NCBI GenBank assembly: GCA_022828425.1
Contig: CP094685.1
Coordinates: 124,001-188,000, forward strand
DNA length: 64,000 nucleotides
Source: Candidatus Thiothrix sulfatifontis
GTDB taxonomy: Bacteria; Pseudomonadota; Gammaproteobacteria; Thiotrichales; Thiotrichaceae
Reading direction: 5' to 3'
Shown here: positions 34,048 to 47,193 of the stretch, in pieces
Layout of the letters: each line of letters starts with the position of its first letter
Position numbering within the stretch: position 1 is the stretch's first letter
Made by a program: the position numbers and the translations under genes
The notes under the pieces: model-generated
The model's input: only the letters and a program-made list of their open reading frames with translations
The model's database searches: none
Told to the model about the DNA's origin: nothing

Positions 34048-34080
34048 CGCTACCGAAGCAATGCCTCTGCTTCGGTAGCG
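34048..34080. terminator. Hairpin after the deacetylase gene
   Basis: The 13-bp arms CGCTACCGAAGCA and TGCTTCGGTAGCG pair perfectly around a 7-base loop, 9 bases after the stop codon. A weak GAAAAC follows rather than a T-run, so it is a likely but atypical terminator. Confidence 0.65.
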
Positions 34081-34178: not shown

Positions 34179-35303
34179 ATGAGTTATCAAGCCGCACAAA
34201 CGACCACTTGGATGCACCCTCTCCAGCAACTGGTCAGCATCAATTCCCATACGTTTAACAAAACCGGGGTTGATCAAGTCAGCGACCTTTTCACCGAATG
34301 GCTGGAGGCACTGGGCTTTGAAGCCGAACACTACCCGCGCCAACAAATCGGTGATCACGTCCATTACTGTACTCCCGATGGTGGCGGTCAAAAACTGTTG
34401 CTACTGGGTCATGCCGATACCGTCTTCGCACCGGGTCGCTTTGAAACCTTTCACGCCGATGACACCTGGGTCTACGGCCCCGGCGTTTGCGACATGAAAG
34501 GCGGCTTGGTGGTTGCGTTAGAAGCCTTACGCCGTATCAGTGCCCAAGGCGCGTTACGCGATGTCGATTTCCTGCTGGTATCCGACGAAGAAACCGGCAG
34601 CGATGATTCGCGCGCCCTCACCACCGAACTGGCCTCCCGCTACCATGCTTGCCTGGTGTTTGAAGCGGCGGGCGCGAACATGGAAGTGGTGGTTGGGCGT
34701 AAAGGCATCGGCACATTCCGCATTGATATTAAAGGCAAGGCTGCTCATGCGGGGCTGCGTTACAGCGAGGGTGTCAATGCCAACCTCGAAGCCGCTCACA
34801 AGCTGATTGCACTGACCGCATTGACCAATATCAGCCTCGGCACCACCGTCAATGTGGGCAAAATCAGCGGCGGTATCGGGGCGAATACCATTTCCCCAGA
34901 AGCGTCGCTGCTGATTGAAATGCGCTACCGCACGCCGGATGAACGCGACCGCTTGCTGATGGAACTTGACGCTATTGTGCAGCACGCCACGGTAGACGGC
35001 ACCGAAGCCATGCTCAGCGGCGGTCTCCAGCGTGATGTGATGGCACCGAATGACACCCAGCAACAGTTGTTGGCAACCCTGCAACGCTTACACGGCAAAC
35101 CCTTACCCAGCGAGTCACGCGGTGGGGTCAGTGACGCCAACCTCGTTGCCGCCGCAGGTGTCGCCACACTGGATGGTTTCGGCCCTTTCGGTGACGGCGA
35201 CCACACTCTCGACGAACGCGCCCTCAAAACCAGCTTCGATGAACGCATTGAATTGTGCGCCCGTGCCTTGGCTTATCACCAACAGCACGGACGGCTTTAC
35301 TAA
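34179..35303 (+). CDS. M20-family metallopeptidase (carboxypeptidase G2-like)
   Basis: The 374-residue product has M20 landmarks: LLLGHADTVFAPG (metal His/Asp), GPGVCDMKGGLVVALEAL (second metal Asp), VSDEETGSDDSR (catalytic Glu), FEAAGANMEVVVGRKGIG and GGVSDANLVAAAG. M20 enzymes of this type remove C-terminal Glu or other amino acids or deacylate small peptides. It has no signal peptide. It opens a four-gene operon with two ATP-grasp genes and an M14 peptidase, with 25 bases to the next gene. Confidence 0.9.
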   Translation: MSYQAAQTTTWMHPLQQLVSINSHTFNKTGVDQVSDLFTEWLEALGFEAEHYPRQQIGDHVHYCTPDGGGQKLLLLGHADTVFAPGRFETFHADDTWVYGPGVCDMKGGLVVALEALRRISAQGALRDVDFLLVSDEETGSDDSRALTTELASRYHACLVFEAAGANMEVVVGRKGIGTFRIDIKGKAAHAGLRYSEGVNANLEAAHKLIALTALTNISLGTTVNVGKISGGIGANTISPEASLLIEMRYRTPDERDRLLMELDAIVQHATVDGTEAMLSGGLQRDVMAPNDTQQQLLATLQRLHGKPLPSESRGGVSDANLVAAAGVATLDGFGPFGDGDHTLDERALKTSFDERIELCARALAYHQQHGRLY

Positions 35304-35328
35304 ACACCAAGCAAACAGGGAGATAACC

Positions 35329-36249
35329 ATGGACAACAGGATGGTCGGCATCTGGATGTACCAGAATGGCGGCGGCGCTGCATTACAGGAAAAATTGGTC
35401 ACTAAATTGCGCCAACACGATTACCAGACCGTGACCGGGTTGGACTTGCGCCATGCCACGGCTAACCGCGACGGCATTTTTTGCAACGGCACCAATATGC
35501 AGGAACTCGCGCTATTTTTCACCTACAACGCGGGTCAGCAAAGTGCGCAGCAAGTGTATATGTACAGCGTACTCGATGGTTACTTGCCGATTATCAATAA
35601 CTATGCGGCGTTTACGCTCAGCGAAGACAAATTCATGACGCAGGCATTGTTGAATGATTGCAGCGTGCCTGTGACCGATTTCTACGTGACACCACTGGAA
35701 AATGCTGAGGTTTTACACGAAGTATTGCACCTTTGGGGCGGTAAGCTGGTGTATAAACCCGTGGATGGCTGGGGCGGGCGTGGTCTGGTCAAGGTGGAAA
35801 CCCCTGAAGCCTTGGATACGCTGATTAGCCAGTTACGTGGCGATGCCAAATACCCAGCGATTTACGTGGAACGCTTTGTGGACTATGACGGTACCGATTT
35901 TCGCATTGATGTGGTGGATGGGCAATTTGTCGGCTGCTACGGGCGGCGTGCTCCGGCTGGCGAATGGCGCACCAATGTGACCAATGGCGGCACGGTGTTT
36001 ATGCGCGAAGCCAACGATACGGTGATAGACCTTGCTTGCTATGCTGCGCGTGTCGCGGGGCTGGATATTGCGGGTGTTGACCTGATTTACGACCGTGAAC
36101 ACGAACAATACGTGGTGTTGGAAATTAATGGAATTCCCGCCTTTGCCACACCAGAACAAGAGCAAATGGGGCTGGATTTCAATGAGCGGAAGCTGGATTT
36201 AATCGTCGCTTTGATCGACCAAAAACTGGATGGAGAGCTGCTTGCATGA
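35329..36249 (+). CDS. ATP-grasp ligase (first of pair)
   Basis: The 306-residue product has the ATP-grasp core: KLVYKPVDGWGGRGLVKVE (Lys143 and Gly loop), IYVERFVDYDGTDFRIDVVD, and VVLEINGIPAF with metal-binding Glu265 and Asn267. Such enzymes join a carboxylate to an amine through an acyl-phosphate, often making peptide bonds. It is about RimK-size but not clearly RimK. The start follows CAGGGAG. The end overlaps the next ATP-grasp gene by 4 bases, so the two are made together. Confidence 0.85.
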   Translation: MDNRMVGIWMYQNGGGAALQEKLVTKLRQHDYQTVTGLDLRHATANRDGIFCNGTNMQELALFFTYNAGQQSAQQVYMYSVLDGYLPIINNYAAFTLSEDKFMTQALLNDCSVPVTDFYVTPLENAEVLHEVLHLWGGKLVYKPVDGWGGRGLVKVETPEALDTLISQLRGDAKYPAIYVERFVDYDGTDFRIDVVDGQFVGCYGRRAPAGEWRTNVTNGGTVFMREANDTVIDLACYAARVAGLDIAGVDLIYDREHEQYVVLEINGIPAFATPEQEQMGLDFNERKLDLIVALIDQKLDGELLA

Positions 36250-37907
36250 CCAAACTGCCTAAGCTGGGCTTAATTTACTTACAACACGTTTGGCGCTTCT
36301 TCGATCAATCCAATTTTAAAGGCTGGCCTGAACCGATTGATATAGTCACCTATCACTGGGACAGCCCCAAGGAAGATTTCATTCAGCAAGTGCGGGCGCA
36401 GGGCATTGACGTGCTGATTGGCAATATTCCGGCGACCGCTTACGAGACGTTTTGCGCGATTGAGGCGGCGTTGCCGGAGGTGCGTTTTGTGCCATCCCTC
36501 AAGTCACAATTTGCGAATAAATCCAAAGAAAATGTGACCTTGTTTTGCCATCAGCATGACTTGCCTGTGCCGCATACCGAGATTTTTTACGATGAAGCGC
36601 AGGGTTATGCGTATTTAGCGGATTGTGTTTACCCCAAAATTATCAAGCGCAGTTACGGGGCATCCAATTACGGGGGTTACTTTGTCCACAAAGTGGATAG
36701 TGCAGCGGAAGCTATCGCGTTGTTTCGTAGCAAGCGTTACTTGCCGATGTATATTCAGGATTGTATCCCGCTGACGGCGGATATTCGGGTGATGTTGATT
36801 GGACATCAGCCGGTTTGTGCGTTTTGGCGCGTGGCAGGTGAAGGGCAATGGATTACCAATACCAGTCAAGGCGGTCACATGAGTTACAGCGGTGTGCCGC
36901 AGGTTGCCTTGGATTTAGCGGTCGCCGCCAGCCGTGCCGCCGAAGCGGAATACTGGGCATGTGACATCGCGGAAAGTAATGGTGAGTATTTCATTCTCGA
37001 ATGCGCCACCGCGTTTGCAGCGTTCCCTTACATTCGCGATTGGATTGGACAATACCTGATGTGGGATTTCTGCCCAGAACGCTTTGCGCAACCCGTCATC
37101 CCGCTGTATCACTGGGAAGCATTGGGCAAAGTGGATGCGCGTATTTTACGGCGGTTGCGCCATCTGGAATTCGGTGATAGCGACAACCCATCAGCGGACG
37201 GTGAGATGTGGGAACGCGAAGGCTATGAGCAATACGCGCTCCCGATGGAGCGCACGGGTACGCTACAAACCGTACCCAATGCCACTTATAGCCAGCAACC
37301 GCTACGCTTGACAACAACCAACGACCTCCCTAGCAGCGTTGCAGTGGTGGAATTATCCCGTGCTAACGCCGCTGTTGTTGCGGAAGTTGCAACTTCAATC
37401 CCAGCCTTTTTGGGTGAGAGCTATTTGGATACTGGTATGGGTGAATGCAGTGCGGAAGAGGGTATTTATACCCCCCGCCCCGTTAGCACCGTAACACCAC
37501 TTCCCCGCACTCTGCCCCCACTGGAAAACGCTCCCGCTGCGCCCGTGTTCGAGGAAATCACCGTCGTTATCCCTCTTGCTGCGCCATCGGCAGCAGTGCT
37601 TGATGAAATACCCGAAGAAATGCCAGAAGAAATATCTGAGCCAGCACTGGAAGAAGTGCCTGATGAAGTCCTCGATCAAGTCCCTGAGCAGCCAGAAATC
37701 CCCCCCAGCGATGACTCCGCAGTCAATATCAACCTAGCCACGCTGGAAGAATTGCAAACCATCGACAATTTAGGCGAGAAACGTGCGCGTAAAATCATTG
37801 CAGACCGTCAAGTGCATGGACTATTCTCTTCCTGCGATGACCTGTTGCGTGTCCCCGGAATCGGGCAAAAATTGCTGAATAAATTGTCCCCTTATCTCAA
37901 AACCTAA
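36246..37907 (+). CDS. ATP-grasp protein with C-terminal ComEA-like HhH domain
   Basis: The 553-residue product has an N-terminal ATP-grasp module (about 1-290): PKIIKRSYGASNYGGYFV (Lys134), MYIQDCIPLTADIRVMLIG, and FILECATAF, where the usual E-x-N metal motif reads E-C-A (Glu252, Ala254). A long Pro/Glu-rich linker (about 350-490) follows. The last 60 residues (VNINLATLEELQTIDNLGEKRARKII...LLRVPGIGQKLLNKLSPYL) are a helix-hairpin-helix pair like ComEA, a DNA- or protein-binding fold. Fusion of HhH to ATP-grasp is unusual. It may be a partner with reduced ligase activity. Confidence 0.8.
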   Translation: MTKLPKLGLIYLQHVWRFFDQSNFKGWPEPIDIVTYHWDSPKEDFIQQVRAQGIDVLIGNIPATAYETFCAIEAALPEVRFVPSLKSQFANKSKENVTLFCHQHDLPVPHTEIFYDEAQGYAYLADCVYPKIIKRSYGASNYGGYFVHKVDSAAEAIALFRSKRYLPMYIQDCIPLTADIRVMLIGHQPVCAFWRVAGEGQWITNTSQGGHMSYSGVPQVALDLAVAASRAAEAEYWACDIAESNGEYFILECATAFAAFPYIRDWIGQYLMWDFCPERFAQPVIPLYHWEALGKVDARILRRLRHLEFGDSDNPSADGEMWEREGYEQYALPMERTGTLQTVPNATYSQQPLRLTTTNDLPSSVAVVELSRANAAVVAEVATSIPAFLGESYLDTGMGECSAEEGIYTPRPVSTVTPLPRTLPPLENAPAAPVFEEITVVIPLAAPSAAVLDEIPEEMPEEISEPALEEVPDEVLDQVPEQPEIPPSDDSAVNINLATLEELQTIDNLGEKRARKIIADRQVHGLFSSCDDLLRVPGIGQKLLNKLSPYLKT

Positions 37908-37925
37908 ATGACTGCATGAGAGCTT

Positions 37926-40544
37926 GTGAAAAACCTTTACCATTCTTACCAGTGTTCTCTGGATTTTTTTGCGGCGTGTGCCAGCGCTCATCCGCAGTTA
38001 GTCAAGCTGGAGACGCTCGGTAAGACCTGGGAGGGGCGCGACTTGATCGCCCTGACCATCAGCGACAATCTAGCCGCCGCCGACCAACGCCCAGCACTGC
38101 TCTACACCGGCAGTATGCACGCCCGTGAATGGGTTGGGCATGAATTGGCAATCGGTTTTTTGCAACACATCCTCGATAATGTGGACTACGACCCCACGAT
38201 CCAATACGCGCTGCAACGCGCCACGCTGTACATGATTCCCTGCATGAACCCCGATGGCTTGGAATTTTCGCGCAACCACTTTTCGTTTTGGCGCAAAAAC
38301 AAACGTGTGAATGACGACGGCAGTTTTGGGGTGGATCTCAACCGTAATTTTCCGCATGGCTTCAGGAAGGTAGAGGATTGCACCTCCAATGTGTATTCCG
38401 GGCCTGAACCACTCAGTGAGCCAGAAACCCGTATCCTCAAAGCGTTCATTGATTCCCATACCAATATTACCCTGTATTTGGATTACCACTCGCAGGGCAA
38501 TGTGTTTTTTCCGGCGCACAATTTCTTGCACGAAGACAGTTGGGAAACCACCGATCTCAACAATCTGTGCGCGAATATGGCGTATGAAATCCACAAAGTG
38601 AGCAATCGCTCCTACGGCATCCATCAAGGCAAACCGCCCGCCAAATTGGTCGGTGGCAGTGCGCGTGAATACTGTTATTCGCGCGGGATTTTGTCGGCGG
38701 TGGTCGAGGTCGGGTCACGCAATATCTCCGATTATTTGGATGATATGCAGGAACATTTGCGCGAACAGTTTCCGGCATTGCTACGCGCCATGCAAACCGC
38801 ACCCAATTACGCTCCCAGCAACCCGCTGCACGAACGCATCCGCAACTTCCAAATTGCGCAAGTGTCTGCGGCCTCGGTCAGCTTGACGTGGGATTATGCC
38901 ACCAGTGAAGGCACGTATTTTGAAGTCTACCGTGCTTTCAAAGACAAACAGCATTGCAACGACAATACCCTGATCGGGCGCACCCACACCACCAGCTATG
39001 TGGACAATACCGTGCGCAGTGCCACCGATTACTACTACAACGTCAGAGCCGTGGATCGGGCAAGCAAATTGCGCTCGCCGTTTCCACCGCGTATTCAATT
39101 GCAAACGTTGTTGAGTGATCACGAGTTCCAACGCACGTATTTTTGCCTGAAAAATACCACGGGTTACGTTGCCGAACATTCGGATAAAAACCGCGCCCAT
39201 TTTGGCGTGAACTCGTTGTTTAGCGGCATTGATGAAACCAAAGGCATTTGCTATTCCGTCATCACGTTTGCGCTGGATACCTTGCCCAGCAATGCCATTA
39301 TTACAGCGGTCAAACTGTCGATCTACCCGATGGATCGCGTATCCACCACCATTGAACGTTACGGACAATGGAACGTCGGCATCGCCTGTATGCCCGAAGA
39401 AGTGGATACCCTTTACGACTACGCCAGCGTGCGCGATTTGGACATTCTCACTTACGTGGGGCGACCCGTGGACGCGGAACACTTGACGCAAGGCATTTGG
39501 ATCGACTGGTATTTAAGCGAATACGAATGCAAAGTCTTGACCAGCCAAATCCGCGAAGGGCAATTATTGCTGCGCATGGAAGGGCCGACTGACCTGCGCA
39601 TTGGGCGACGTTCACAAATGATGCAATGGGACATCGGCTACGGGCAGTTCGGTTCTGGCATCCAATACCGCCCCAAAATGGAAATCACCTACACGCTGGA
39701 GCCGCAACAAGTCCGCATTTACCCTGAAAACATTTTCACCAGCGCCCCCACGCATACCACCGAACACTTAGAAAACCGTTTACTGTGCGGCTACCGCGCG
39801 GGTGAACAAGCCCTACTGGGGTATTTTGAACTCAACTTATCGTCATTGCCGAATTACGACCACACCGTCATTACCCATGCTTGGTTAGAACTCACGGTGC
39901 AAGAAGCCAACGCCAGCGAGAATGTGCGCCTGCACATTGAACTGATTCAACCACCCGCCGCAGGGCTTCCCACTGATGCGACTGACCGCTGCCAATTCAC
40001 CGAATTGGAACGCATTGATTACGACATTAGCACCCGTACCTTAGCGGCGGAACAAACCTGCCTGCTCAAGTTTGCCACCTTCAGCTTGTTGCACCTCAAC
40101 GAAGCCCGCAAACGCCGTGAGAAAGTGTATTTCTGGATACGCCCCACCACCTCACGCCCGCTCAAACAGGAAAACTTGGTCGAATGGCACACCAAAGACA
40201 AAAGCAAAGCACCGCAATTGGTGATTCAATATTTGCAGAAACGCCGCCAGCCTGTCCCCAAAGTTACCAACTTGCGCGTTGTGGAGGAAAATGGGCAATT
40301 GAAATTGCTCTGGGATAACCCCTTGCACGATGATTTTCGCGGGGTGCGGATTATTCGCAACGTATTCCGTGAACCGCGTTCGCCGCACGATGGCGATAAA
40401 CTGTATGGCGGGGCAGATAATTACACCTTCGATACGTTTGGTAGCAAAGATGTGGCTAAGTATTATGCGGTATTCACTTACGACGATGTGCCGAATTATT
40501 CGGATGCGACGGTCATTTATTACCAGCCAGCCGCCAGCAATTAG
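37926..40544 (+). CDS. M14 zinc carboxypeptidase with appended beta domains
   Basis: The 872-residue product has a peptidase domain (about 1-285) with zinc ligands His65 and Glu68 (MHAREW) and His188 (LDYHSQGN), substrate motif DLNRNFPHGF and Glu261 (AVVEVGSRN) as catalytic Glu. An FN3-like domain (about 300-390), two DNRLRE-like beta modules and a last FN3-like domain (about 775-870) follow. Despite these extracellular-type parts, no signal peptide is seen after the GTG start. It lies 18 bases after the ATP-grasp/HhH gene. It may trim C-terminal residues added by the ligases. Confidence 0.82.
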   Translation: MKNLYHSYQCSLDFFAACASAHPQLVKLETLGKTWEGRDLIALTISDNLAAADQRPALLYTGSMHAREWVGHELAIGFLQHILDNVDYDPTIQYALQRATLYMIPCMNPDGLEFSRNHFSFWRKNKRVNDDGSFGVDLNRNFPHGFRKVEDCTSNVYSGPEPLSEPETRILKAFIDSHTNITLYLDYHSQGNVFFPAHNFLHEDSWETTDLNNLCANMAYEIHKVSNRSYGIHQGKPPAKLVGGSAREYCYSRGILSAVVEVGSRNISDYLDDMQEHLREQFPALLRAMQTAPNYAPSNPLHERIRNFQIAQVSAASVSLTWDYATSEGTYFEVYRAFKDKQHCNDNTLIGRTHTTSYVDNTVRSATDYYYNVRAVDRASKLRSPFPPRIQLQTLLSDHEFQRTYFCLKNTTGYVAEHSDKNRAHFGVNSLFSGIDETKGICYSVITFALDTLPSNAIITAVKLSIYPMDRVSTTIERYGQWNVGIACMPEEVDTLYDYASVRDLDILTYVGRPVDAEHLTQGIWIDWYLSEYECKVLTSQIREGQLLLRMEGPTDLRIGRRSQMMQWDIGYGQFGSGIQYRPKMEITYTLEPQQVRIYPENIFTSAPTHTTEHLENRLLCGYRAGEQALLGYFELNLSSLPNYDHTVITHAWLELTVQEANASENVRLHIELIQPPAAGLPTDATDRCQFTELERIDYDISTRTLAAEQTCLLKFATFSLLHLNEARKRREKVYFWIRPTTSRPLKQENLVEWHTKDKSKAPQLVIQYLQKRRQPVPKVTNLRVVEENGQLKLLWDNPLHDDFRGVRIIRNVFREPRSPHDGDKLYGGADNYTFDTFGSKDVAKYYAVFTYDDVPNYSDATVIYYQPAASN

Positions 40545-40591: not shown

Positions 40592-41647
40592 ATGAACACA
40601 CCTATTCTTGCTTACGCCGCCCAGTCCGCTCACGACAACTTAGCCCCGTATCAGTTGGAACGGCGCGAACCGCGTGCTGACGATGTGGTGATCGAAATCC
40701 TGTTTTGCGGGGTCTGTCACTCCGATTTGCATCAAGCCCGTAATGACTGGGCGAACAGCGTTTACCCCGTGGTGCCTGGTCACGAAATCATTGGGCGCGT
40801 CCTCAGTGTCGGCTCATCTGTCACCCGCTTCCAAGCGGGCGACTCGGTGGGGGTCGGTTGCATGGTCGATTCCTGTCAGCATTGCGAACCTTGCCATCAC
40901 GGGCTGGAACAGTATTGCGCGGAATTCCCAACGCTGACCTATAACAGTATTGACCGGCACGATCACACGCCCACTTACGGCGGCTATTCGGAAAAGATCG
41001 TCGTTTCCGACAAGTTCGTGCTCAAAGTGCCGGATGGTTTGGATTTGGCAGGTGCGGCACCGTTACTGTGTGCGGGCATTACCACTTACTCGCCACTGCG
41101 CCACTGGAACGTTGGTAAAGGCAGCAAAGTAGCGGTTATCGGCTTGGGCGGTCTGGGTCACATGGGCTTAAAACTCGCCAAAGCATTAGGGGCTGAAGTC
41201 ACGTTGTTCACCCGTTCAGCGGACAAGGAGCAAGACGCCCGCCGTTTGGGAGCGGATAACATCGTGCTTTCCACGGATGACAGCCAGATGGCAGCGGTCA
41301 CCGGACGTTTTGATTTGATCATCGACACTGTGCCGTATATCCACGACATTAACCCGTATGTGCCGACGCTGGCGATCAGCGGCACCTTGGTTTTGGTCGG
41401 CTATCTGGGGCCGCTAGAACCTTTCCTGAATTCGGCGCCGCTGGTATTGGGGCGTAAATCCGTGGCGGGTTCACTCATCGGTGGCATTGCCGAAACGCAG
41501 GAAATGCTGGATTTCTGCGGCGAACACGGCATTACGTCCGACATCGAAGTCATTCAGATTCAAGAAATCAATGCAGCTTACGAGCGCATGTTGAAGAGCG
41601 AGGTGAAATACCGCTTCGTGATTGACATGGCATCGCTCAAAGCTTGA
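40592..41647 (+). CDS. Zinc-dependent alcohol dehydrogenase (YahK/CAD-like)
   Basis: The 351-residue medium-chain dehydrogenase has catalytic zinc site GVCHSDLHQ and VPGHEIIG, structural zinc Cys set DSCQHCEPCHHGLEQYC, and nucleotide-binding GLGGLGHMGLKLAK. It is close to NADPH-dependent cinnamyl-alcohol/YahK aldehyde reductases. It is 47 bases after the M14 gene, so it may be transcribed with that operon, though its function looks independent. Confidence 0.9.
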   Translation: MNTPILAYAAQSAHDNLAPYQLERREPRADDVVIEILFCGVCHSDLHQARNDWANSVYPVVPGHEIIGRVLSVGSSVTRFQAGDSVGVGCMVDSCQHCEPCHHGLEQYCAEFPTLTYNSIDRHDHTPTYGGYSEKIVVSDKFVLKVPDGLDLAGAAPLLCAGITTYSPLRHWNVGKGSKVAVIGLGGLGHMGLKLAKALGAEVTLFTRSADKEQDARRLGADNIVLSTDDSQMAAVTGRFDLIIDTVPYIHDINPYVPTLAISGTLVLVGYLGPLEPFLNSAPLVLGRKSVAGSLIGGIAETQEMLDFCGEHGITSDIEVIQIQEINAAYERMLKSEVKYRFVIDMASLKA

Positions 41648-44775: not shown

Positions 44776-47193
44776 ATGTTGCGAATGTCGTCTTTGCTGA
44801 CTGCCACACTGTGGTGCTTTTTATTTAACCTAATCAATGTAAGCAATGCGCACGCTAATACCTTCGATTGCCAAGCCGAACCGTTGCTATCAGCGGCGGT
44901 GCAACCAGAGACACTGGATTACGCCAAATTTCTAAGCAAACGCGGCAAATTTTACCACCAATGCCGTCTGGATTACGCCCGCGCTAAGCAGGATTTCACC
45001 GACAGTTATACGATTGCCAGCAAAGCATCCCCTGCGGCTCCCGTCGATACGGGAATCGCCCTCAGCAATCTAGCCAGACTGTATATGGAATGGAATCAAC
45101 ACCTTGAGCAAGTCGAAGACAAATTCAAACAAGCAGCCACCCTGTTGCAAGGCACGGCACGGCATTTTGAAGCCCTGACACACTTGGGGGATTTTCATGC
45201 ACAACAAAGCAATTGGTCGCAAGCACAAACGTATTACTTGCAAGCCCTGCAACACCTTGATTATCCGCAAATTCCGCCCGCGCAAAAAGCCATTGTTTTC
45301 AATAACCTCAGTAAGGTTTACCGCGAACAACGTCAGTATCCAACCGCCGCGCATTACCTAGAAGAAAGTGCCGCCCTACTCCCTAACACCAGTACCGACT
45401 ATGCCATCAACCGTTACAATCTTGGGCAAAATGCCCATGCGCACGGTGATGATGCCAAAGCCAAACAGTATTACAACGCCAGCCTGAGCCTTTACCAACA
45501 GCAACCGCCCAGCCCCAACCGTGAACAAGATATTGCGCAAGTCAGCACCCGCTTGGCAGAGCTGGCTTTGCAAGCCGGTGACATTGCCGAAACCAAACGC
45601 TTATTGGATATAGCTGCCCCGACCTATCGCTCCCCCAAAAGCGCTTACTTGCCCAACGGCACCGCCTTTTTGAGTGCCACCATGCAACAGGATGTGCAAC
45701 GTTTCGCGCGTCTGCAATTGCACGTCGCCACGCAAAGCCCCGTGTCACCGGCACAAGCCCCGGAGTTGGCAGACGCTTTCTGGGCGTTGCAACATTTGCA
45801 CGGTTTGCAACGAATGCAGAACTTGCACCAAACTGTATTGCGCTGGAGTGCCAGCAACCCTGCACAAGCCCAAGCCATCCAAGATTTATGGCAAACCCAG
45901 CAAACCCTAACGCACTTGGAAGCACAACACGCCGCGCAATTGGGCACACCGGCTGCCGAACAACTTGCGGCTGCCATTAACACCCAACAACAAACACTGC
46001 TCGCCCAAGACAGTCAGTTACGCCGTGAATTTCCGGCATACCGTCAACTGCTGAATCCGAACGCTTTAAGTTTGAGCGACGCACAAACGCATCTGCGTGA
46101 CCATGAAGCGCTGATGACTTGGGTGATCGACCACGATGCCATCAATCACCAGCAAGTCGCTTATTTATTGGTGGTTCGCTCCAAAACAGCCCCGCGCTTG
46201 CACCGTTTAGCATTGCCAGCCCATTTCAGTGAAAGCCTGGCACAAGTATTGCGCCCCATGTATGACGTCAGCGAAACCGCCCAGCCGCCTAGCCCCTTTG
46301 CCATGGCGCAAGCCGAACAGCTTTATCAAACGCTATTCGCCCCAGCGATACCCGATTTGCACGGCGTCAAACACATCATTGCGGTCACGGATGATGAATT
46401 ACAACGCTTACCGCTGCCTTTACTGGTCATCAAGTCCGCGCCAGCAGAGGCTTACCGTGATGCCCATTGGCTAATGCAGGCGTATACGTTTGCGTACTTA
46501 CCCTCGGTACAGGCACTGGCCAACTTGCGCACATTGCCCGCCGCCCCGCAAACGGATGCGCGTCACGCTTTTTTGGGGATTGGAGCGCCACAATATGCTC
46601 AACCCCAGCATCAACAGCAGCCCTTACCCGGTGCTGCGGAAGAATTAGAACACCAACGCCAACGTTTAGGCGGGGAATCCCAATTTGTCCTGACCGGAAA
46701 AGCCGCGACGGAACAAGCCCTGCAACAACTCAGCAACAGCGGCGAATTACAACAGTTCAGAGTCATTAGTTTGGCGACTCACGCGTACACGCCGTCACGC
46801 TTGGAAAATGCCGAAGCACGGCTAGAACTCGCCCCCACCGCGCAAGCCGACGGACAATTAACCGCCAGTGAGATCGCCAACTTGCAGCTCAAAGCCGACT
46901 GGGTATTATTGTCAGCGTGCAGCACGGGTAAACCCACCGATCTCAACGACGGCATGTCGGCCTTGGTCAAAGCCTTTTTCACCGCCGGGGCGCGTAGCGT
47001 CCTTGCTTCGCATTGGGATATTGATTCCGCCACCACCGAACAGTGGCTAGGCGCAGTATTTGACCAACTCCAACAGCAACCGCAGCAACGCGCCCAAGCC
47101 TTACAACACGCCATGCAAACGCTATTGGAGAGTGAGGCGTACAACCATCCTTTTTACTGGGGCGCATTCAGCCTTTACGGTGACGGCGGTTGA
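44776..47193 (+). CDS. TPR-CHAT protein (caspase-like protease)
   Basis: The 805-residue product has a signal peptide (LLTATLWCFLFNLINVSNAHA) and TPR-like repeats (about 75-290: AIALSNLARLYMEWNQHLEQ, ALTHLGDFHAQQSNWSQAQTYYLQAL). The C-terminal CHAT domain (about 560-805) has catalytic His669 (SLATHAYTP) and Cys715 (LLSACSTGK). It is secreted or periplasmic. CHAT proteases are caspase/separase relatives, used in programmed processing or surface maturation. It converges with the sigma/anti-sigma pair by an 18-base overlap. Confidence 0.88.
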   Translation: MLRMSSLLTATLWCFLFNLINVSNAHANTFDCQAEPLLSAAVQPETLDYAKFLSKRGKFYHQCRLDYARAKQDFTDSYTIASKASPAAPVDTGIALSNLARLYMEWNQHLEQVEDKFKQAATLLQGTARHFEALTHLGDFHAQQSNWSQAQTYYLQALQHLDYPQIPPAQKAIVFNNLSKVYREQRQYPTAAHYLEESAALLPNTSTDYAINRYNLGQNAHAHGDDAKAKQYYNASLSLYQQQPPSPNREQDIAQVSTRLAELALQAGDIAETKRLLDIAAPTYRSPKSAYLPNGTAFLSATMQQDVQRFARLQLHVATQSPVSPAQAPELADAFWALQHLHGLQRMQNLHQTVLRWSASNPAQAQAIQDLWQTQQTLTHLEAQHAAQLGTPAAEQLAAAINTQQQTLLAQDSQLRREFPAYRQLLNPNALSLSDAQTHLRDHEALMTWVIDHDAINHQQVAYLLVVRSKTAPRLHRLALPAHFSESLAQVLRPMYDVSETAQPPSPFAMAQAEQLYQTLFAPAIPDLHGVKHIIAVTDDELQRLPLPLLVIKSAPAEAYRDAHWLMQAYTFAYLPSVQALANLRTLPAAPQTDARHAFLGIGAPQYAQPQHQQQPLPGAAEELEHQRQRLGGESQFVLTGKAATEQALQQLSNSGELQQFRVISLATHAYTPSRLENAEARLELAPTAQADGQLTASEIANLQLKADWVLLSACSTGKPTDLNDGMSALVKAFFTAGARSVLASHWDIDSATTEQWLGAVFDQLQQQPQQRAQALQHAMQTLLESEAYNHPFYWGAFSLYGDGG

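Follow-up and report, generated by a model that had tools for sequence, protein, structure and literature searches.

What might two ATP-grasp ligases do when they are enclosed by two metallopeptidases? The question is raised by a four-gene cassette at positions 34179-40544 of a 64,000-nucleotide stretch of Candidatus Thiothrix sulfatifontis DNA (contig CP094685.1, positions 124,001 to 188,000, hereafter the window), whose genome is a single contig of 3.69 Mb. All four genes lie on the forward strand. They encode a carboxypeptidase G2 (CPG2)-like M20 metallopeptidase (34179-35303, 374 amino acids; Pfam M20 and M20_dimer), a RimK-type ligase, ATP-grasp-1 (35329-36249, start ATG at 35329, 306 amino acids; Pfam RimK), a second ligase, ATP-grasp-2 (36246-37907, 553 amino acids; Pfam RimK), in which a LysX/RimK-like core of about 310 residues is followed by a long linker and a helix-hairpin-helix (HhH) tail, and an M14 carboxypeptidase with fn3-like and DNRLRE-like regions (37926-40544, start GTG at 37926, 872 amino acids). 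Open reading frames (ORFs) and the Pfam scan bear out the peptidase/ATP-grasp/ATP-grasp-HhH/peptidase set of the initial annotation, and its spacings (25, -4 and 18 bases) are correct to the base. The Pfam scan of the four proteins names superfamilies, the only level at which the parts of the cassette are recognised; NCBIfam listed no model at its cut-off for any of them (for M20, among the best 25 of 45 matching models). With a probability of roughly 0.45, we favour a cytoplasmic system that would write and erase C-terminal acidic residues, resembling RimK/RimB in its working and built from other parts.

The genes for M20, ATP-grasp-1, ATP-grasp-2 and M14 are a conserved module. They occur together at 13 of 13 loci, comprising the window and 12 relatives, and thus pass the co-conservation check that the initial annotation had set for itself. 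The relatives are one Photobacterium plasmid record (2.14 Mb) and 11 genomes of the window's class or phylum; all were located via ATP-grasp-2, and the reverse search was made with ATP-grasp-1 only, not with M14 or M20. Each enzyme superfamily is common, as would suit genes that adjoin by chance or serve routine amino-acid salvage. Against this, the set is intact at all 13 loci whether M20 is divergent, fused or simply on the same strand, which is more than chance; as an account of the linkage this explanation is refuted, and its overall likelihood is negligible.

With ATP-grasp-2 as a single-protein query, the core was found within the genus (16 genomes) in the window's genome only, the other 15 matching via the HhH region only. 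Two of 62 other genomes in the family sample matched weakly (E 2.6e-9 and 5.8e-4), and in the class sample of 369 genomes the window's genome was the only one to match at E 1e-20. The Photobacterium plasmid record, which lies outside these samples, contains all four genes, with M20 divergent. A single-protein scan of the whole collection gave one match in Aquimarina, which spans 27 amino acids of an unrelated gene and was rejected as chance. A profile of two ATP-grasp-2 cores (A5, two rows) had hits at E 1e-25 in five of 398 genomes from the phylum; these include the window's, and in the four new genomes all four genes adjoin one another. An ATP-grasp-1 profile, run on the 398 phylum genomes at E 1e-40 with at most five candidates scored per genome, matched exactly the five ATP-grasp-2-bearing genomes; since these five sequences sit inside the profile, the informative part is the absence of others. 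With a six-row profile (A11), the order of G533 gave 3 matching genomes among 48 (none new), and the family of G794 gave 1 among 12, already known; the order of G794 gave 8 among 394, and the seven of these that were new all had the full set.

ATP-grasp-1, ATP-grasp-2 and M14 share one strand at every locus, and M14 lies downstream of ATP-grasp-2 except in G457, where a fused M14-M20 gene comes first (L033, 559-4290; one ORF of 1243 amino acids that includes the C-terminal domains of M14). M20 is divergent at nine loci and on the same strand at four, the fusion included. Identity to the window is 62-67% for ATP-grasp-2 (over its core), 52-58% for M20, 48-53% for ATP-grasp-1 and 43-47% for M14, and across the 13 loci the pairwise identities of M14 and ATP-grasp-2 correlate with r 0.92 (other gene pairs 0.61-0.79). 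In trees rooted at midpoints only, the three relatives from another class of the phylum (L032, L033 and L034) form a supported clade for all four proteins. The nine other relatives, Photobacterium and eight from the window's class, group together with support in the ATP-grasp-2, M20 and M14 trees and weakly in that of ATP-grasp-1 (45/76), and the window is a long branch of its own.

Which reaction could such a module carry out? For the ATP-grasp-1 profile, the best solved-structure match was RimK (5zct, E 4.5e-19). In a Pseudomonas RimK structure, Arg189 and Asn262 contact the terminal glutamate (PMC10092738). The equivalents of Arg189, Asp, Glu and Asn262 are each kept in 13/13 loci, and the E-x-N motif is intact. 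ATP-grasp-1, searched from a start at 35326, one codon longer than from ATG 35329, was below the cut-offs of PRK10446 (68.4 vs 331) and the LysX equivalog (TIGR02144, 94.7 vs 275.6) and far from that of NAGGN synthetase (TIGR03103, 44.1 vs 569). As for a known pathway such as glutathione-like synthesis, neither ligase reached the cut-offs of the glutathione synthase, LysX, MptN or RimK models.

The M14 protein is the large multi-domain enzyme that had been described. Pfam places Peptidase_M14 at residues 14-264, with a sub-threshold fn3 match, and the DNRLRE-domain match in the window protein is below its cut-off (26.2 vs 34 bits); a match to this domain was seen in 6/6 M14 members scanned. 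By alignment, the catalytic domain (37926-38825, residues 1-300) contains H65, E68, R140, H188, E261 and, at the specificity position, R247. The specificity half is nearest carboxypeptidase O (CPO; 5mrv), and residue 247, which corresponds to position 255, aligns with an Arg in CPO and an Ile in carboxypeptidase A4 (CPA4). Residue 255 sets M14 specificity and Arg255 confers acidic specificity, as in frog Cpo.1, which carries Arg255 and cleaves FA-Glu-Glu (PMC9925722). The comparison with glutamate-specific carboxypeptidases, an idea of the initial annotation, was positive, in that the zinc and catalytic residues (H, E, R, H, E) and the CPO-like Arg are present in all 13 proteins. Arg is absent at this position from 15 other M14 genes in a class sample of 56 genomes (G, n = 5; D, n = 3; W, n = 2; A, I, K and Q, one each; one gap); the window's copy (L036) was excluded from this control, L046 and L051 gave no match, L038/L050 and L053/L054 are the same genes and were counted once, and the distant ones align poorly. 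On these residues M14 looks specific for C-terminal acidic residues. For M20, the best profile match was carboxypeptidase G2 (1cg2, E 3e-40), and all 13 loci keep the metal ligands and an Arg at the position of CPG2 Arg324. M20 is below the cut-off of the PRK06133 glutamate carboxypeptidase model (211.5 vs 349 bits) and is predicted to be a remover of a C-terminal acidic residue.

Because ATP-grasp-1, M14 and, less firmly, M20 all point to C-terminal acidic residues, and because the RimB protease is known to remove the glutamates that RimK adds to a ribosomal protein (PMC11957791), a reversible acidic tag is the reading that we favour. In this mechanism, ATP-grasp-1 would extend an acceptor at its C-terminal carboxylate with glutamate or a different acidic amino acid, at the expense of ATP. 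ATP-grasp-2, whose metal/substrate site is altered, would be its obligatory partner, serving either as a further ligase that takes another donor or as a subunit for targeting or regulation, and the HhH domain that it often carries may bring it to nucleic acid or nucleoprotein. The Arg255-type, acid-specific M14 and the carboxypeptidase G2-like M20 would then trim or remove the added residues. That the residue is glutamate, which way each reaction runs and what the HhH domain does are inferred here, and likewise the cytoplasmic location, no signal peptide being apparent by eye.

Two known systems work in a comparable way. Eukaryotic TTLL ligases and M14 carboxypeptidases act on acidic tails in opposite directions, as the ligase and carboxypeptidases of the cassette would, but the cassette is not homologous to them as a set: its ligases are RimK-type, its M14 is nearest carboxypeptidase T (CPT), CPA4 and CPO, and it has an additional M20. 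This glutamylase/deglutamylase paradigm is quoted in a paper on the RimABK system of Pseudomonas, in which an ATP-grasp glutamate ligase is balanced by a dedicated protease (PMC11957791). ATP-grasp-1 is likewise nearest RimK and keeps the glutamate contacts, whereas the putative erasers are M14 and M20 metallocarboxypeptidases instead of a retropepsin-like protease, a second, altered ATP-grasp is present and ATP-grasp-1 itself scores below the cut-off of the RimK family. Retropepsin-like RimB is not among the four window proteins, to which the check for a retropepsin was confined.

ATP-grasp-2 departs from RimK in its active site. The best match of its profile was 3vpd, annotated as an S6 modification protein (E 1.2e-13), followed by the LysX entries 1uc9 and 1uc8, and the protein is below the LysX equivalog cut-off (TIGR02144, 59.5 vs 275.6). 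Lys, Arg, Asp and Glu are kept in 13/13 loci, and the Asn of E-x-N, equivalent to Asn262, is Ala in 13/13, giving the motif E-C-A. As ATP-grasp-2 is the best conserved of the four proteins, it does not look like a decaying copy.

The HhH tail is not needed for the system. In the window it is an accessory ComEA-type tail (37719-37898, residues 492-551; HHH_3, PF12836, 59.5 bits), and seven other loci carry a different, HHH_5-like tail. Six of these seven have Pfam matches to HHH_5, above the cut-off in L073 and L075 and below it in L071, L074, L076 and L077; the tail of L024 aligns with them and has no Pfam match to an HhH model. The remaining five loci have no HhH tail, namely L031 (scanned, no match) and L032, L033, L034 and L072, with tails of 12, 30, 12 and 66 amino acids. 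Since only 8/13 loci have a tail, and these are of two types, it does not define the system; the initial annotation was right about the window's ATP-grasp-2, but not in counting this variable domain as part of the set. Two HhH types at one position suggest that binding of some partner, perhaps nucleic acid, was selected for repeatedly. The linker motif EEWPS-x-x-W-N-x-Q, found in 9/13 loci (L024, L031 and L071-L077) and thus also in L031 and L072, which are both without an HhH tail, is possibly a docking site. A bolder version of the reversible tag, which we regard as speculative and unlikely in its full form, is a bacterial glutamate code. Here a mobile, self-contained system would furnish a specific target in the cell with C-terminal acidic tails, to be erased by the two carboxypeptidases, and the altered ATP-grasp would be a targeting subunit that more than once gained unrelated HhH domains to reach a nucleic-acid-bound target. 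Such a code would be analogous to tubulin glutamylation and to RimK/RimB, and independently assembled.

Several observations weigh against a reversible acidic tag. The domains fn3 and DNRLRE usually occur in secreted proteins, and the whole M14 profile is nearest carboxypeptidase T, not CPO. Polar residues at position 255 and the shape of the pocket also affect M14 specificity (PMC9925722), and the position of Arg324 is common to other M20 dipeptidases (PMC6271292), so its conservation is no proof of glutamate specificity. One tag would hardly seem to need two erasers. ATP-grasp-1 falls short of the cut-off for the RimK family (TIGR00768, 118.4 vs 143.4 bits), and the activity of ATP-grasp-2 is uncertain, as it is without the E-x-N Asn. 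Single-sequence structure models were of low confidence (predicted local distance difference test scores of 33.3 and 34.2). Finally, an acceptor was not found: of the 3414 small frames (20-250 amino acids) at the 13 loci, 137 have a match at a single other locus and none at more than one, with the flanks being short in L033 and L034. As no small frame is common to more than two loci, no conserved precursor peptide or carrier is seen with the cassette; no precursor gene had been visible in the initial annotation either.

The lack of a protein acceptor or precursor near the cassette also favours the main rival, a non-ribosomal small-peptide metabolite. The two ATP-grasps would couple amino acids, two or three of them or one with a carboxylic acid, into a small peptide, and the peptidases would trim, recycle or unmask the product; NAGGN-like ATP-grasp/peptidase operons are an analogue. 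Two non-identical ligases with different active sites would suit such a pathway, as would the patchy spread, which is that of specialised metabolism. Nevertheless, flanking frames of at least 60 amino acids that are common between loci (E 1e-8) encode response-regulator, diguanylate-cyclase-type and ABC-type proteins (named by eye), with no acyltransferase or tailoring gene, and the only transporters among them are ABC-type ATPases at two loci, in different places. The cut-offs of the NAGGN and cyanophycin ligase models are far from reached, and the apparent C-terminal acid specificity of M14 fits tag removal better. We consider a small-peptide product rather unlikely. Of the earlier proposal of a new system that tags a protein or builds a peptide, the linked and co-conserved set stands, while its function is one that we infer.

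Two congeners (L073 and L075) also have common flanks. In both, the cassette lies near rpsP- and rimM-like genes, probably followed by trmD and rplS (noted at L073, 14491-16492, and L075, 5461-7462), and in G794 (L031, 12679-16488) it lies beside leuC-, leuD- and leuA-like genes, all named by eye.

The LysX-like ATP-grasp-2 and the M20 hydrolase also recall the LysW/LysX/LysK amino-group carrier pathways. ATP-grasp-2 would then load an acceptor protein, the residue would be modified while carried and M20 would unload it, just as product release in LysW pathways is the task of an M20 hydrolase; the weak matches include the [LysW]-lysine hydrolase model (50.5 vs 363 bits). Yet none of the 12 cassette genomes searched has a LysW-type carrier above the family cut-off (the Photobacterium record was not searched), with one weak match in G851 (15.4 vs 53.2 bits), whereas the control search was positive in Thermus, Deinobacterium and three archaea. 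The shared flanking frames show no other conspicuous pathway gene, no pathway enzymes were seen, and the additional M14 is a further difference. We give a carrier pathway only a small chance.

An ATP-grasp with a peptidase is typical of some clusters for ribosomally synthesised and post-translationally modified peptides. A graspetide-like peptide of this kind, or an anti-phage system, with the ligases acting on a precursor or on an immune effector, would agree with the sporadic presence of the cassette, which resembles that of mobile accessory systems. This reading has a slim chance, given that no precursor-sized ORF is common to more than two loci and that neither viral contigs nor phage records (searched with the ATP-grasp-2 core) contain relatives. 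Defence and phage-family searches gave nothing firm; PADLOC had no match for three of the proteins, and a weak Cas12f match of M14 (E 7.4e-6) was taken as spurious. The rlo operon of Pseudomonas aeruginosa (RloA protease, RloB and RloC ATP-grasp) is also an operon in which an ATP-grasp and a protease are functionally linked, but it features a secreted retropepsin and a membrane transglutaminase-like protein (PMC12239564), neither of which is among the four cassette proteins. For each of the RimK, LysW and graspetide systems, at least one defining feature that was tested is missing here.

The composition of the cassette gave no signal of foreign origin (G+C 52.9% vs 52.3% for the window). A promoter and terminator scan yielded fewer sites than in shuffled sequences and did not flag a perfect 12-bp inverted repeat with a 9-base loop and no T run, read from the sequence at 34048-34080 between a polysaccharide deacetylase gene and the cassette. 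Downstream, a zinc alcohol dehydrogenase gene (40592-41647; Ahr-like, below the Ahr cut-off) begins 47 bases past the M14 stop and could be co-transcribed with the cassette; no relative of it was found among the shared flanking frames of the other cassettes. Further downstream lies a large protein that is TPR-like and CHAT-like by eye (44776-47193).

An ATP-grasp ligase with a dedicated peptidase is a known kind of system, and this composition was not found described. No paper in the literature searched has ATP-grasp, M20 and M14 together, and among the papers listed by broader searches none describes it, a prior mention in the 2009 amidoligase survey (Iyer) being possible, and the parts consulted of PMC8939145, PMC4431377 and PMC10308900 do not mention the cassette. 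That one four-gene unit spans two classes, with its M20 gene found on both strands and in one case fused, argues strongly for a working pathway. If the acidic-tag reading is true, the cassette would be a portable ligase and carboxypeptidase set for writing and erasing acidic tails. Reversible glutamylation would become testable in simple bacteria, and the family would provide new peptide ligases and tag-specific carboxypeptidases for use.

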